A program made the position numbers and the translations under genes. From Phascolarctobacterium sp. (GTDB lineage: Bacteria > Bacillota > Negativicutes > Acidaminococcales > Acidaminococcaceae), in the NCBI RefSeq assembly GCF_030531065.1, contig NZ_JAUNOQ010000005.1:1-64000 (forward strand): 64,000 nt of DNA. Direction: 5' to 3'. Shown piece by piece: positions 2,672-38,378 of this stretch (position 1 is its first letter; every line of letters begins with the position of its first letter). The notes beneath the pieces are model-generated. The model worked only from the letters and a program-made list of their open reading frames with translations. It did no database searches and was not told the DNA's origin.

Positions 2672-2696
2672 GCTTCTGAGCGGAGGAATTTTATTG

Positions 2697-4292
2697 ATGA
2701 CAACACAAAAAGAAATGTTTGGTGAACTGGAACTGGATAAAAAGGTCGTAGCGGCACTGACGGAAATGGGCTTTGAGGAGCCGTCTCCCATTCAGGCTGC
2801 CACGATTCCGCTGGTGCTGGAGGGTAACGACGTTATCGGTCAGGCCCAGACGGGTACGGGCAAAACTGCCGCCTTCGGCATTCCCCTGGTACAGTCCATC
2901 GATGATTTTAAGCATATTCAGGCTTTGATTATGTGCCCGACCCGCGAGCTGGCTATTCAGGTGGCCGAAGAGGTGGGCAAGATCGGCCGCACCCGCCGCG
3001 TGCGCGCGCTGCCGGTTTACGGCGGGCAGCCCATCGAACGCCAGATTCGTGCGCTGAAAAATAACGTGCAAATCGTCATCGGCACTCCCGGCCGTTTGAT
3101 CGACCATATTAACCGCGGTACGATTAAGCTGGACCACATTAAGTTTTTAGTGCTGGACGAGGCCGATGAAATGCTGGATATGGGCTTTGTGGACGATATC
3201 GAGGAGATTATGCGCGCGCTGCCGACGGAGCGTCAGACGCTGCTCTTTTCCGCAACCATGCCCCGTCCTATTTTGAGCCTGACCAAAAAGTACATGAAAG
3301 CGCCGAAGAATGTAACTATTTCCAAGGAAGAGCTGACCGTACCGCTGATCGAGCAGTATTATTTTGAAACTAAGGATAAGATCGAAGGCTTGTGCCGCCT
3401 GCTGGATGCGGAAATCGACGGCAAGCTGATTATTTTCTGCCGCACGAAGAAGGGCGTGGACGATTTATCCATCGCCTTGTCCAGCCGCGGCTATATGGCC
3501 GAGGGCCTGCACGGTGATTTGAGCCAGAACCAGCGCGACCGCGTAATGAAGAAATTCCGCGAGGGCGCAGTGGACGTGCTCATCGCTACGGACGTAGCCG
3601 CCCGCGGCATCGACGTGGATAATATTACCCATGTTATCAATTTTGATATTCCTCAGGATCCGGAAAGCTATGTGCACCGCATTGGCCGCACGGGCCGCGC
3701 AGGCAATACGGGCGTGGCGATGACCTTTATCACGCCGCGTGAATTCCGCCAGCTGAAGCTTATCGAGCGCATGGTCAAGACCAAAATTCAGCGCCGCCAG
3801 CTGCCGACTGCGGCTAATGTTATCGAGCGCCAGCGGGACCAGATTATCAGCAAGATGCAAACGGTGCTGGAGCTTAACGCTTATCACGATTACATGCCCA
3901 TTGCCGAAAGCCTGCTGGACGATTATTCCGCCGAGGAGGTTGCCGCCGCGGCTATTAAGCTGATGCAGGAGGGCAATAAGGCCTTGGAAGCGCCGCAGGA
4001 GGATACGCTGGCTATGGATTTGCAGAACACCGGCGGGCGTCCCGGCATGGTGCGCCTGTTTATGAATATCGGCCGCAGTCAGAAGATTATGGTCAAGGAT
4101 ATTGTCAGCACTATCGCCATCGAGGCGGATATTCCCGCCCGCGATATCGGCCTGATCAATATTTATGATAAATTTACTTTCGTCGAGGTGCCGGAGGACG
4201 TAGCGGAAAAGGTTATCGGCGCTATGCACAAGAACTTTATCAAGGGCTACAAGGTGAACATTGAGCCTGCGCGGGTAAGAGAGCGCCGCTGA
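2697..4292 (+). CDS. DEAD-box RNA helicase with C-terminal DbpA RNA-binding domain
   Basis: A 531-residue ATP-dependent RNA helicase, probably acting in ribosome assembly or mRNA turnover. Visible motifs in order are the Q motif (PSPIQ), Walker A QTGTGKT with K56, PTRELA, TPGRL, the DEAD box starting at D154, SAT, and the helicase C motifs DVAARGIDV and HRIGRTGRAG. The last 75 residues or so (from GGRPGMVRLFMNIG) match the DbpA RRM-like domain, which in DbpA and some DeaD/CshA proteins contacts 23S rRNA. ATG 2697 is preceded by GGAGG ten bases upstream; the adjacent TTG 2694 is an alternative. The symbol is left blank because deaD, cshA and dbpA cannot be told apart here. Confidence 0.9.
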   Translation: MTTQKEMFGELELDKKVVAALTEMGFEEPSPIQAATIPLVLEGNDVIGQAQTGTGKTAAFGIPLVQSIDDFKHIQALIMCPTRELAIQVAEEVGKIGRTRRVRALPVYGGQPIERQIRALKNNVQIVIGTPGRLIDHINRGTIKLDHIKFLVLDEADEMLDMGFVDDIEEIMRALPTERQTLLFSATMPRPILSLTKKYMKAPKNVTISKEELTVPLIEQYYFETKDKIEGLCRLLDAEIDGKLIIFCRTKKGVDDLSIALSSRGYMAEGLHGDLSQNQRDRVMKKFREGAVDVLIATDVAARGIDVDNITHVINFDIPQDPESYVHRIGRTGRAGNTGVAMTFITPREFRQLKLIERMVKTKIQRRQLPTAANVIERQRDQIISKMQTVLELNAYHDYMPIAESLLDDYSAEEVAAAAIKLMQEGNKALEAPQEDTLAMDLQNTGGRPGMVRLFMNIGRSQKIMVKDIVSTIAIEADIPARDIGLINIYDKFTFVEVPEDVAEKVIGAMHKNFIKGYKVNIEPARVRERR

Positions 4293-4344: not shown

Positions 4345-6171
4345 ATGGCACAGAATAATATTTACGGTAATCTGAAGGGCATCAGAAATTCCGTTATCGA
4401 AGAACTGAAAACTCTATATGAGCTGCGCCTGGACGCGGGGCAGCTGGTCACGGCGGAGCTGGCTCTGAAGCTAGCGGATATTACGGATTTTATCAACCGC
4501 GAGGTATCCGTTTACATCAGCCGCAGCGGCCAGGTGCTGGCCGTGGCCGTAGGCGACGACCAAAGCGTGGAGCTGCCGCCCATCGAGGGACGCCGCGGCG
4601 CCGGACGTTTAAGCGGCGTGCGCTGCGTTCACACCCATCCCAACGGCAATCCTGCCTTGAGCGGCGTGGATATTTCGGCGCTGAAAAATAACCGTTTCGA
4701 CGCTATGGTCGCCATCGGCGTTACTGCGCCGGACTTTGCCCAATCCACGCTGAGCTTCGGCATGATTACCAGCATGGACGATAACGAGCAGTACCAGACG
4801 GAATGCTACGGACCGCTGGCGCTGGAGCAGGCGGAGAGCATTTTCTTCCCCAATCTGGCGGCAATGGTGGAGCGCATTCTGGAAAAGCAAAGCGGCAGTT
4901 CCAGCCTGGCGCAAAGCGCGGAACGAGCCATTCTGGTAGGTATGGAATATGGCGGCGGCGTCAGCAGCATCGGCTGGACGGCGGAGGACTCCCTTGAGGA
5001 ATTGAAGCAGCTGGCAGATACTGCCGGGGCGCAGGTCGTGGCTAAATTTTTGCAGAAGCGGCCCAAGCCCGACCCGGCCTTTTTCATCGGCAAGGGTAAG
5101 GTGCAGGAGCTGGCGCTGTATGTGCAGCAGGAAAACGTCGACCTGTGCATTTTTGACGACGAGCTGTCGCCGGCGCAGCAGCGGAATATCGAGCAGGCTA
5201 TGGGCGTGCGCGTGCTGGACCGCACGGCGCTGATTCTGGATATCTTCGCGCAGAGGGCGCGTACCAACGAAGGCAAGCTGCAGGTAGAGCTGGCGCAGCT
5301 GCAATACACTCTGCCGCGCATTATGGGCAAGGGCTTGAGCCTGTCCCGTTTAGGCGGCGGCATCGGCACCCGCGGCCCCGGCGAAACCAAGCTGGAGGTG
5401 GACAGGCGGCGTATCCGCGACCGTATCGCTTATATTAAGGAGTGTATCGGCAAGGTGAAGAACGTGCGCACGCTGCACCGGGCAGGGCGGGCTAAGGCCA
5501 GCGTGCCTACGGTAAGCCTCGTAGGCTATACCAACGCCGGCAAATCCACGCTGCTCAATACGCTGACCAATTCGGATATTTACGCCAGAGACCAGCTGTT
5601 TGCTACCCTTGACCCTACGACGCGCCAACTGGAGCTGCCCCATAAGCAGCAGGCCATTCTGACCGATACCGTAGGCTTTATTCAGCGTTTGCCCCATCAG
5701 CTGGTGGCGGCGTTCCAGTCCACCTTGGAAGAAGTGGTGGAGGCCGACGTGCTGCTGCACGTTATCGACGTCAGCCACGAGCTGTACAAGGAGCAGAGCA
5801 ACGCCGTGTATCAGGTGCTGGACGAGCTGGGCGCCAGAGATAAAACCATCATTACCGTTTATAATAAAATCGATAAGCTGCCGGAGGGATCCGGTCTGCC
5901 GGAACGCCTGGCTAAGGAGGAAAACAGCGTCTGCATTTCCGCCAAGAGCGGCGTTAATCTGGATGTGCTGCTGGAGCTGATTGCCGAAAATCTGAAGCTG
6001 AAGGCAGTGGAAGCAAGCTTTTTGATTCCCTACAGCGATTCTGCCGCCGCTGCGCGTCTGCACGAGGCGGGCACGGTGCTGGAACAGGAATATCTGGCCG
6101 AGGGCACGCTGCTGAAGGTGCGTCTGGAGGCAGAGCAGGTAAGCGCATTTGAGCAATATCTGCAAAAATAA
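4345..6171 (+). CDS. hflX: GTPase HflX with N-terminal JAMM/RadC-like extension
   Basis: A 608-residue protein, about 180 residues longer than the core HflX of E. coli. The conserved HflX part starts near residue 195, followed by the HflX glycine-rich segment (LSRLGGGIGTRGPGE) and a G domain with GYTNAGKST (K400), DTVGF and NKID. HflX binds ribosomes and splits or rescues stalled 70S particles. The N-terminal 180 residues contain H96-x-H98-x10-D109 with S106 (HTHPNGNPALSGVD), the arrangement of JAMM metalloproteases and RadC, with a possible upstream Glu at E53. Long HflX forms occur in other Firmicutes; the role of the extension is not known to me. RBS GGAGGTG precedes the ATG. The next gene is the usual Firmicute partner ynbB. 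Confidence 0.92.
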   Translation: MAQNNIYGNLKGIRNSVIEELKTLYELRLDAGQLVTAELALKLADITDFINREVSVYISRSGQVLAVAVGDDQSVELPPIEGRRGAGRLSGVRCVHTHPNGNPALSGVDISALKNNRFDAMVAIGVTAPDFAQSTLSFGMITSMDDNEQYQTECYGPLALEQAESIFFPNLAAMVERILEKQSGSSSLAQSAERAILVGMEYGGGVSSIGWTAEDSLEELKQLADTAGAQVVAKFLQKRPKPDPAFFIGKGKVQELALYVQQENVDLCIFDDELSPAQQRNIEQAMGVRVLDRTALILDIFAQRARTNEGKLQVELAQLQYTLPRIMGKGLSLSRLGGGIGTRGPGETKLEVDRRRIRDRIAYIKECIGKVKNVRTLHRAGRAKASVPTVSLVGYTNAGKSTLLNTLTNSDIYARDQLFATLDPTTRQLELPHKQQAILTDTVGFIQRLPHQLVAAFQSTLEEVVEADVLLHVIDVSHELYKEQSNAVYQVLDELGARDKTIITVYNKIDKLPEGSGLPERLAKEENSVCISAKSGVNLDVLLELIAENLKLKAVEASFLIPYSDSAAAARLHEAGTVLEQEYLAEGTLLKVRLEAEQVSAFEQYLQK

Positions 6172-10280: not shown

Positions 10281-13200
10281 ATGTACATGAAACGAAAACA
10301 AATTTTAGCGAAAGCTATAACCTTGGGCTTGCTGCTGGCGATGCCGTGTAGCGCGTGGGCATACGATGTGGTTAGTAGTGATACTCCTTTGACAGAAAAT
10401 AAAACCTATACAGACGGATTGAACGTAAATAACAGTGCTGCGTTAGATGGTGCAGGATATGATATCAGCGTTAAAGGAAATACTAATGATAGCGGAGGAA
10501 ACGCTTACGGCGTTATCAACTACGGCAAAATAGAAAATGTGGTTAATTTTACTGCTGAGAATTTAGTTTTAAATTCAGGTAGCGGAGCTGTAATATCTAT
10601 TCAAGAAGGAGAATTTACAGGTGCGTTTAGGAATGATGAGGAAGCTACATTAAAAATAAATGGTGACACGAGCTTTTCGGGGACTACTCAAGTTGCTAAT
10701 TATACTTATTCATCATTATATAATGCAAATGGCGCTAAGATAGTTATTGCTGATGGCGTTACTGTTACGGTTGCTAATGGCTTTACTAATGGTTATATGA
10801 AAACTCCGGGAGGAACACTGGAGGCGGGACAAGCTTCTTTTGTTATAGGTAAAAATGGCGGATTTGAAAATAATTCTGGCCTTGCTGAAGTAGGGTCAAT
10901 TACTGGCGGTGACAATAATTTTGTGATAGTTACAACTACAAACAATGCACAGCTTATTGTTAATAATGAATTAAAAACTTCGGTTTATAATACTGGTGAA
11001 TTAACTTATAATGGCACAGCGTCAATAGGTGGTAGCCTGCAAAACACGGGTACTATATATGCAACAAAAGGGTTTTTAAAAATAGATAAGGACTTAACTT
11101 TATCGACTGCTAACGCTGCTATTTGGAAGAATGAAAATAAAGGTTTGGCAGATATAGATGTAGTTGGAATTTTGACTTTGGATAATAATTACTATTATGG
11201 TCAGTCTGTTTTAACTGCAAACGAACTTGTGGCTGGATTTATTGATAATAGAGGACATATAAAAGCAGATAAAATAGTTGCTAAGGAAGGTTTTGTGTCT
11301 TACTACATTGAGAATGGAGAGAGTACCATTGAAGTTAATGAATTAGTTATTGGTAATTATGTTGATGATAGTGGTAATAGTTGGGCAAGTATTATAGGTG
11401 AAAAGGATTCGGGAGCGAGCGGATACGGAAATTCTGTCGTTACGGTTCATAAAAAGTTAATTTTTGATTCTTCTAATGGTATGCCGATTTTTGAAAATAG
11501 GGACCGTTTATTCTTGGATAGTTTAGATGGCGAGGCAATCGTAATTGAGGGTGATGGACAACTTGTAAATCAGGTGATTACCAGCAGTTATAGCGGTGAG
11601 TCTGTTGGCATTATGGCTAAAAATGCAGAAAAAGAAACTATCGAAAATCTGATAATTAACTCTGAATTTGTTAATCAGGGTGAACTTTATGCTACAAACC
11701 TTGCTGTTTTAAATGGTGTGGATGGTATTGAACAAACAGATGGCACTTTCAAAGAAAGTCGTGGCTTTAATGTAGAGAATCTGACTGTATTGTCTGATGG
11801 CGATTTCGCTTTGAAAAATACAGAATATGAATTTACCAGCGTCGGCGTGGGCGCTGGCGCCGCACTTTCTACTAATGCTGATACTGTTTCTGTCGAAAAA
11901 GCAATCGCTTTGGATAAATCCGCAAGCTTTACCGCTAACGACGTAAGCGCGAGTGTAATTTCTTTGGCGGACAGTTCTAAGTTTACCGCAAAAGATGTCA
12001 GCGGTACGGAAGCCGTCGCTTTAGGCGCAGCCGCTGCTTTTAAATCTGAAACTTTAGCTATGACCGAGGGCGGTACGGTAGTCAGCGACGGCGGTTCTTT
12101 GTCCACAACGACTATGAGCGGCGAAGAACTGACCTTCGCTTTGCAGTCCGGTAAGGAAAAACAAATTGCGGTTCAAGAATTTACCGGCAATGATTTAAAA
12201 ATCAATGTAGCCTCTTTGACGCCGGAGCAGGTGGTTATCGATAAAATGGACGGCAGCGGCGTGACCGTTACCGGCGACAGCCAGCTGACGGACACCTTTG
12301 AGGTTGATAATGTGGAAGCAGGCTTGCAGGCTTTGGCTTATACCGCATCTGTGAACAGCACGCAGAACGGCCAAAGCAAAACCGTTATTGCGCCTGCCGG
12401 TAAAATTTTGGGCGCTTTGTACGGCGAAACCGACGGTGCTAACCATATTATTACTGCCAGTGTAAAAGAAGGCGTTAACAATTCCAACCAAGGTATCAGC
12501 GAGATGGCGTCTATCGCCCTCATGACCTGGCGGCAGGAGAATAACGATATGAATAAGCGTCTGGGAGAGCTGCGCGACAGCGCCGGCGAGCACGGCGTGT
12601 GGGTGCGCATGACCCGCGGCGAAAGCAAATACGGCAACCAAAATATTAAGAACCAGTACAACGCTTATCAATTAGGCTACGATGAAAAGCTGAGCAGCGA
12701 CAAGCACTGGACAGTGGGCGCAGCGCTGACCTATACGGACGCCGAAAGTAGCTTCCGCAGCGGTAAGGGCGAAAACAAACATAAGGGCTTGGCGGTTTAC
12801 GGCAGCCGTCTGAACGACGACGGCAGCTTTATCGACCTCATCGCCCGCTATGCGCGTTTGGAACACGAGTATGAAGTATACGGTGGCGCGGGTAAAGGCG
12901 ATTTCGATACCAACGGCTATAGCCTGAGCGCGGAATACGGCAAGCGCTTTACGCAAAAGAGCGGTTTGTGGATAGAACCGCAGGTGGAACTGACTTACGG
13001 CAGAGTAAGCAGTGGCGAATATCTTACGAATAACGGTGTCAGGGTGCGTCAAGATGGCATGGACAGCTTGGTAGGGCGTTTGGGCTTCGCTTTAGGCAAA
13101 AATTTGGCTAAAAACAAAGGCAACGTCTACCTGCGGGCATCCTATCTGTACGATTTTGACGGCGAGACCGACGTGCGCTACAGCTACGGTCGGCAGAACA

Positions 13201-13364
13201 AACGCTTTGAGCAAGACCTCGGCGGCGGCTGGTGGGAGGTCGGCGTCGGTACGAACATCAACTTCAGCGAAGCGGCGCATTTGTATTTTGATATAGAAAA
13301 AACCTACGGCGGCGACGTGGCAACGCCGTGGCAGTGGAACGCAGGCGTGCGCTGGAGCTTCTAA
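10281..13364 (+). CDS. Autotransporter (type Va) outer-membrane protein
   Basis: A 1027-residue secreted protein. A Sec signal peptide ends at about residue 28 (hydrophobic LGLLLAMPCSAWA). A passenger of roughly 740 residues, rich in N, G, T, S and V, has the repetitive look of a beta-helix. The last 255 residues or so (from VWVRMTRGESKYGNQN) are an autotransporter beta-barrel, with alternating hydrophobic strands and a terminal WSF, the aromatic residue recognised by BAM. Function is probably adhesion or surface display; no protease motif is seen in the passenger. The first half (to about 11830) is markedly A+T-rich with relaxed codon use, while the rest matches the genome. GAGGAAAGGG lies upstream; ATG 10287 is an alternative start. 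Confidence 0.9.
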   Translation: MYMKRKQILAKAITLGLLLAMPCSAWAYDVVSSDTPLTENKTYTDGLNVNNSAALDGAGYDISVKGNTNDSGGNAYGVINYGKIENVVNFTAENLVLNSGSGAVISIQEGEFTGAFRNDEEATLKINGDTSFSGTTQVANYTYSSLYNANGAKIVIADGVTVTVANGFTNGYMKTPGGTLEAGQASFVIGKNGGFENNSGLAEVGSITGGDNNFVIVTTTNNAQLIVNNELKTSVYNTGELTYNGTASIGGSLQNTGTIYATKGFLKIDKDLTLSTANAAIWKNENKGLADIDVVGILTLDNNYYYGQSVLTANELVAGFIDNRGHIKADKIVAKEGFVSYYIENGESTIEVNELVIGNYVDDSGNSWASIIGEKDSGASGYGNSVVTVHKKLIFDSSNGMPIFENRDRLFLDSLDGEAIVIEGDGQLVNQVITSSYSGESVGIMAKNAEKETIENLIINSEFVNQGELYATNLAVLNGVDGIEQTDGTFKESRGFNVENLTVLSDGDFALKNTEYEFTSVGVGAGAALSTNADTVSVEKAIALDKSASFTANDVSASVISLADSSKFTAKDVSGTEAVALGAAAAFKSETLAMTEGGTVVSDGGSLSTTTMSGEELTFALQSGKEKQIAVQEFTGNDLKINVASLTPEQVVIDKMDGSGVTVTGDSQLTDTFEVDNVEAGLQALAYTASVNSTQNGQSKTVIAPAGKILGALYGETDGANHIITASVKEGVNNSNQGISEMASIALMTWRQENNDMNKRLGELRDSAGEHGVWVRMTRGESKYGNQNIKNQYNAYQLGYDEKLSSDKHWTVGAALTYTDAESSFRSGKGENKHKGLAVYGSRLNDDGSFIDLIARYARLEHEYEVYGGAGKGDFDTNGYSLSAEYGKRFTQKSGLWIEPQVELTYGRVSSGEYLTNNGVRVRQDGMDSLVGRLGFALGKNLAKNKGNVYLRASYLYDFDGETDVRYSYGRQNKRFEQDLGGGWWEVGVGTNINFSEAAHLYFDIEKTYGGDVATPWQWNAGVRWSF

Positions 13365-37094: not shown

Positions 37095-38378
37095 TTGAGC
37101 AAGCTGCTGATTAAAAATATCGAGCTTTTACATACTCCCAATGGGCAAATGCACTGCATTGCCGTGGAGAACGATAAAATTACCTACGTAGGCGCTGAAC
37201 TGCCTGCGGATACGGAGGATGTCGAAATTATCGACGGCAGGGGCAAGCTGGCTACCGCCGGTATGGTCAACACCCACGGTCACGTTTCTATGACGCTGCT
37301 GCGCAGCTATGCCGACGATATGGCGCTAATGGACTGGCTGGAAAATAAGATTTGGCCTGTCGAAGCTAAAATGAACGCCAACGATATTTACTGGGGCGCT
37401 ATGCTGGGCATTGCGGAAATGCTGAAAAGCGGCACGACCTGTTTTGCCGATATGTACGGCCCCGCTATGGAGGAGGTAGCCCGCGCTTGCTCGGAAACAG
37501 GCATTCGCGCCAACTTGTGCCGCGGGCTAATCGGACTGGCGCCGGATAAGGACGCGAAGCTGGCGGAAAACGACGCCTTGGCCGAAAACTGGCAGGGGCA
37601 CGACAACGGGCGCATTCGCGTTACTTACGGCCCCCACGCGCCGTACACCTGCCCGATAGATTATTTGGAGAAGGTTATCAACGCGGCGGCGGCGCATAAA
37701 GCGGAAATACAAATGCACCTGTGCGAAACCAAATTTGAGGTGGAAAGCTGCCTTAAAGAGCACGGCGTAACGCCCATCAAGCTGATGGACAGCCTGGGCA
37801 TGTTCGAGCTGGGCACTATCGCCGCGCACTGCGTACACCTGACCGACGAGGATATGGATATTATGTCCGCAAAAAAAGTGCGCGTAGCGCATAACCCGCA
37901 AAGCAATTTGAAGCTGGCCAGCGGCATCGCACCCGTACCGGCCATGCTGCGAAAAGGTATTTGCGTTGGCCTGGGCACCGACGGCGCGTCCAGCAATAAT
38001 AATCTGGACATGCTGGAGGAATGCCGCGCCGCCGCTATGCTGCACAAGGCTACTACCTTCGATCCTCTCGCCGTTCCGGCGTCCAAAGCCTGGGCTATGG
38101 CTACGGAGGATGGTGCCAAGACACTGGGCTTTACGCAGCTGGGCCGCTTAGAGGCAGGACAGCTGGCGGATATTGTGCTGTGGGATATGCACAAGCCCTA
38201 CTGGTACCCGCGCCACAACAAGCTGTCCCAGCTGGTTTACGCAGCTAACAGCAGCGACGTGGACACCGTTTTCGTCGCCGGTAAAAAGGTTGTAGAGCAG
38301 GGCAGACTGCTGACCTTCGACGAGGAAAAAATTTACGCCGAGGCTGAAGCCTGCGCGCAAAGGCTGATCAATAAATAA
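37095..38378 (+). CDS. mtaD: 5-methylthioadenosine/S-adenosylhomocysteine deaminase
   Basis: A 427-residue amidohydrolase. Metal ligands are visible as NTHGH near residue 57, MHLCET near 215, AAHCVHL near 245 and GTDGASSNNNLDM near 297, the MtaD pattern. It deaminates MTA, SAH and often 5'-deoxyadenosine to the inosine forms. TTG start with GAGGAG nine bases upstream; no ATG nearby. It sits between the aldolase and nfnA, in the same tight operon as the phosphorylase and ahcY. Confidence 0.92.
   Translation: MSKLLIKNIELLHTPNGQMHCIAVENDKITYVGAELPADTEDVEIIDGRGKLATAGMVNTHGHVSMTLLRSYADDMALMDWLENKIWPVEAKMNANDIYWGAMLGIAEMLKSGTTCFADMYGPAMEEVARACSETGIRANLCRGLIGLAPDKDAKLAENDALAENWQGHDNGRIRVTYGPHAPYTCPIDYLEKVINAAAAHKAEIQMHLCETKFEVESCLKEHGVTPIKLMDSLGMFELGTIAAHCVHLTDEDMDIMSAKKVRVAHNPQSNLKLASGIAPVPAMLRKGICVGLGTDGASSNNNLDMLEECRAAAMLHKATTFDPLAVPASKAWAMATEDGAKTLGFTQLGRLEAGQLADIVLWDMHKPYWYPRHNKLSQLVYAANSSDVDTVFVAGKKVVEQGRLLTFDEEKIYAEAEACAQRLINK

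Follow-up and report, generated by a model that had tools for sequence, protein, structure and literature searches.

A predicted JAMM/MPN+ domain at the N-terminus of the ribosome-splitting GTPase HflX in Phascolarctobacterium and related bacteria

Introduction

Why should a gene for the ribosome-splitting GTPase HflX encode, ahead of its usual domains, some 190 residues bearing the signature of a metalloprotease? JAMM zinc enzymes remove ubiquitin tags in human cells. The question arises from the 64,000-nucleotide stretch of Phascolarctobacterium sp. analyzed here, hereafter the window (NZ_JAUNOQ010000005.1, positions 1 to 64,000, forward strand). A short N-terminal extension of mycobacterial HflX touches uL16 and helix 38 of the 23S rRNA, where it drives the disordering of rRNA; the review that describes it also records, in its available text, extended HflX proteins from certain Clostridium and Paenibacillus but names no domain in them (PMC12493154). 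HflX is mentioned nowhere in the available text of a 2006 survey devoted to the JAB domains of prokaryotes (PMC1779556), and our literature search found no published link between HflX and a JAMM, JAB, Prok-JAB or MPN domain.

Results

The hflX gene occupies positions 4345–6171 (+ strand; 608-aa ORF), with a purine-rich GGAGGTG stretch on its 5′ side. Judged from its sequence, the identity of the product as HflX is certain: the equivalog model TIGR03156 scores 492 bits against a cut-off of 217 over residues 214–550. The closest named relative, from Phascolarctobacterium, shares 89% protein identity. Pfam recognizes the HflX N-terminal domain (PF13167, 4984–5250), the middle/helical region (PF16360, 5254–5490, containing SRLGGGIGTRGPGETKLE) and the GTPase domain (5512–5868), all on the + strand and from residue 214 onward, and about 190 residues precede this usual HflX. 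The G motifs GYTNAGKST, DTVGFI and NKID are intact, as they are, small variations aside, across all 98 distinct long HflX proteins (122 long HflX minus rows with identical last 400 residues); the JAMM-bearing protein should therefore still work as HflX, and by homology would split ribosomes. Solved chains of canonical ribosome-bound HflX resemble the whole core (approximately residues 190–605), whereas their matches begin at residue 188 or later and lack the extension.

The extension itself (approximately residues 1–190; 4345–4914, + strand) had been ascribed in a preliminary description to the JAMM/RadC type, an assignment that the predicted fold, its structural neighbors and the register of the RadC profile match all bear out, no unrelated fold having been encountered. 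The AlphaFold2 model of residues 1–202, built from 20 aligned sequences, reached a pLDDT of 84.4 and a pTM of 0.80. In it, E53 (GAG codon, 4501–4503, + strand), the putative catalytic glutamate, precedes strand 54–59, the HxH of HTHPNGNPALSGVD (residues 96–109, comprising H96, H98, S106 and D109; 4630–4671, + strand) closes strand 92–98, and D109 lies in the first turn of helix 107–116; an HxH at the end of a strand followed by an aspartate in the first turn of a helix is what we take to be the JAMM arrangement. The best Foldseek matches were chains of CSN5, RadC, proteasome Rpn and BRCC36 (best E 2.9e-3). VIA-align placed PfJAMM1 first (Z 7.8, below the caution line of Z 8 and thus not decisive alone; rmsd 3.5, 110 of 129 residues aligned), followed by PfJAMM1 with SAMP2, RadC, CSN5 and AF2198, and almost all its 50 rows were JAMM, MPN or RadC entries, one row (2kks) having an uninformative title. 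The part matching solved JAMM folds spans residues 31–170. On the strength of these models, the N-terminal extension of about 190 residues is a genuine JAMM/MPN+ domain. Residues 191–213 (4915–4983, + strand) connect it to the HflX core, with low pLDDT at 185–190 and 206–208 in the full-length model (pTM 0.55), where the placement of the JAMM domain relative to the core is of low confidence. The poor order of the stretch 185–213 would suit a JAMM domain that cleaves HflX itself between its two parts and so sets its activity, but no conserved cleavage sequence was noticed there, and we regard this reading as highly improbable.

By sequence, RadC is the closest family among those compared. Profile–profile alignment of the domain with six RadC domains in hhalign gave 97.0% (E 8.6e-11), pairing E53, H96, H98, S106 and D109 with the corresponding RadC residues, all in register, while 60 column shuffles reached at most 17.5% and the reversed profile 0.2%. 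Masking residues 95–110 lowered the value to 33%, so most, though not all, of the RadC signal sits in the motif region. Single-family models saw less: Prok-JAB scored 15.8 bits on the window's domain, below its curated cut-off of 25, no Pfam match to that domain reached its cut-off, and neither UPF0758_N nor the RadC JAB family was found by the Pfam scan of the window's HflX protein. This sub-threshold score is a limit of the model, not a defining biological feature; Prok-JAB matched 35 of 73 members (E ≤ 0.1, best 5.6e-5) and the RadC family 13 of 73, both mostly weakly. The profile built from these 73 sequences (A3) also reached the AMSH-type protease Sst2 (E 0.0046), again pairing the motif residues in register, next to weak unrelated matches such as ribosomal protein S19. 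RadC (PF04002) thus shares with the HflX domain the JAB fold and the aligned Glu, HxHP, Ser and Asp, yet it has an N-terminal domain of its own (UPF0758_N), an HNHPSGDPxPS motif and no tie to a GTPase, and it co-occurs with JAMM-HflX in nearly all the same genomes. The JAMM deubiquitinases and their relatives (PfJAMM1, AF2198, AMSH/Sst2, Rpn11, CSN5, Cap3) share the fold and the H-x-H-P-x6-S-x2-D spacing, but their structural identity to the HflX domain is only about 10–15%, and JAMM-HflX differs from them in being fused to a ribosome GTPase, with no ubiquitin-like partner recognized nearby.

The bare HxHx10D pattern was common: four occurrences in the six-frame window against 2.06 expected, which is not significant. 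This could favor a chance resemblance within an unrelated domain. More specific forms were rarer, HxHx7SxxD occurring twice against 0.075 expected and arising in 9 of 20,000 shuffles of the HflX protein, and HxHPx6SxxD once in the window and in none of 200 shuffles. The second HxHx7SxxD match, HGHVSMTLLRSYAD (37275–37316), lies in another ORF, is not of the HxHP form and looks like either chance or an amidohydrolase metal motif. What decides the matter is conservation. Among the 98 distinct long HflX proteins E53 was kept in 93, H96 in 92, H98 in 93, S106 in 92 and D109 in 92; the motif was present in all 57 extension-bearing loci of one search set and in 60 of the 66 loci L068–L133; and, six rows without the motif having first been removed, the five residues were invariant across the 73 rows of alignment A3. 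With the fold, the RadC profile match and the shuffles pointing the same way, we consider a chance motif ruled out, its probability being close to nil. The earlier proposals that the JAMM His and Asp would be conserved across long HflX proteins, and that E53 is the equivalent of the catalytic Glu, thus hold: the former are kept in 92–93 of 98 sequences rather than lost in most orthologs, and E53 is aligned with an invariant RadC glutamate.

The domain was detected in 57 of 63 genomes of the order and, at E ≤ 0.001, in 88 of 120 genomes of the class, one of these 88 matches being a 204-aa ORF (E 1.3e-4) that is probably RadC. Of 398 genomes drawn from the phylum, 305 carried HflX, and profile A3 matched 116 of the 398 at E ≤ 0.01 (72 at E < 1e-9 and 44 weaker). 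All 72 strong matches sit at HflX loci, and no strong standalone copy of the domain was seen in this profile search of the 398 genomes; among the far weaker next matches, the seven ORFs scanned were six RadC and one helicase, part of which resembles the JAB domain of RadC. This helicase (L191, 3–1451, − strand) is of the DEAD type, its RadC-like stretch reads HNHPSGNLSPSQPD and lies close to the N-terminus, and in that genome the JAMM site of HflX is lost. Within the same draw the domain was present in all nine HflX-bearing genomes of the window's class, and the eight members of that class that lacked the domain gave no HflX match either. These counts hold for the phylum, genomes outside it having been covered by a single contig scan with patterns favoring near relatives.

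The site has also been lost in at least two lineages. A single-sequence search found the domain in 65 genomes, 59 with the motif and six without; the profile added seven genomes, all of one genus, and in the four of these inspected the motif was lost, while two further HflX proteins (L180 and L181) hold weak remnants of the domain. Across 12 motif-less sequences, H96, H98, S106 and D109 were each kept in none and E53 in six; as the 12 rows were picked for missing the motif, the informative part is the joint loss of the four residues, not the loss itself. R60, G62 and E193 were kept in 12 of 12, with the rest of the domain recognizable, and the motif-less profile aligned over its full length with the intact one (99.85%), whereas against RadC it fell to 8% and no longer matched. 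A search of the PDB with the motif-less profile (A4) returned only weak histone H4 matches, which were taken as chance. The basic loop RR..RLSG.RC (in the window RGAGRLSGVRC, residues 84–94; 4594–4626, + strand), which we suppose may bind rRNA, was kept in several of the inactive versions. By analogy with MPN-minus proteins, the domain probably persists in the site-less lineages as a docking or regulatory module. One could extend this to the whole family and take the domain to be chiefly an MPN-minus-like module for ribosome binding, structural or regulatory in its role, whose metal site is merely stabilizing: the retention of the domain without the site in 12 sequences, its full-length alignment with the intact form and the survival of the basic loop all agree with that. 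The complete catalytic set, including Ser106 and Glu53, in 92–93 of 98 long HflX proteins goes, however, beyond the needs of a structural zinc, and we find this extension rather unlikely.

The history of the fusion was approached through a tree of the HflX core with 103 rows (66 intact, eight degenerate, 29 extension-free), which left out L062, L067, L102, identical rows and rows more than 85% identical. On this tree, extension versus none required four changes, and all three states six. With a root among extension-free HflX proteins, the tree would fit a single gain of the domain, roughly three losses and two or more inactivations, to be read with 36 of the 100 inner branches of this quick tree being weak and the phylum's extension-free rows having been drawn from the best-scoring HflX loci.

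The surroundings of hflX are conventional, with ordinary-looking neighbors in 24 loci (judged mostly by eye rather than by family scan; L052 gave no HflX ORF). In the window, the gene upstream (2694–4292, + strand) encodes a DEAD-box helicase that carries a DbpA RNA-binding domain and is also likely a 50S factor, and a methionine gamma-lyase family gene lies downstream (PF06838, 6192–7436, + strand), with members of its sequence cluster beside hflX in several other loci too; further along, positions 10281–13364 encode a protein of 1027 aa that bears an autotransporter beta-domain. In three loci (L053, L202, L213) a gene from a single cluster, YigZ/IMPACT-like by eye, stands at most four genes downstream of hflX. 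In five genomes of family f51 HflX continues in frame into a tRNA-dihydrouridine synthase (Dus). The fused loci are L141, L142, L145, L150, L161, L218, L219 and L220; L220 holds a complete 746-aa HflX–Dus ORF (Dus E 3.2e-94), and the others end within the frame, the start of Dus being seen by eye.

The domain could instead be a real hydrolase acting off the ribosome, for instance in the manner of RadC or with a sulfur-carrier or ubiquitin-like protein as its substrate, the fusion then reflecting shared regulation. RadC is its nearest sequence relative, and two ThiF-family genes score above cut-off in the window's genome; but RadC itself occurs in 394 of 398 genomes, the 24 hflX neighborhoods, inspected mostly by eye, showed no recognizable gene for a ubiquitin-like or E1 partner of a shared tag system, and strong profile matches in the 398 genomes were HflX fusions only. 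We consider such off-ribosome action very unlikely. Replacement of RadC was also rejected as a role, the four RadC-less genomes (G179, G259, G266 and G432) not being among the 72 carriers, as was trimming of bL27 in place of Prp, since the window's genome has its own Prp and a second enzyme is unneeded. Neither bL27 nor the neighboring genes thus yielded a substrate candidate.

Discussion

The reading that we favor, and hold to be fairly likely, is that a JAMM metallohydrolase carried by HflX is brought to the intersubunit face and cuts an amide bond in a ribosome-associated protein during splitting. The HflX of this lineage appears to be an ordinary one fused to a JAMM/MPN+ metallohydrolase domain, and would take that domain to the intersubunit face, on its 50S side; there the domain would probably cut a peptide or isopeptide bond of such a protein as stalled or vacant ribosomes are split. 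The zinc, the catalytic activity and the substrate of JAMM-HflX are putative, and the proposal in the preliminary description that ribosome rescue could be coupled to removal of a protein tag is plausible.

Its position on the ribosome is suggested by the mycobacterial extension: like it, the JAMM domain would lie at uL16 and 23S helix 38. The latter is attached to the same end of HflX and acts at the ribosome interface, although it measures 39–58 residues and the available text of the review describes no JAMM domain in it (PMC12493154). An amide-hydrolyzing zinc site at that position is the most economical reading. A more specific form of it, which we consider doubtful, makes JAMM-HflX a ribosome-coupled protease: GTP-driven splitting of stalled ribosomes would set the JAMM active site over a protein on the 50S face that is stuck or covalently modified, and remove that protein, a bacterial parallel to the proteasome's coupling of an NTPase to tag removal by Rpn11.

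If the domain is active, bacterial ribosome splitting would be tied to proteolysis, with a defined active site open to test, and the naturally inactive versions of the domain offer built-in controls.
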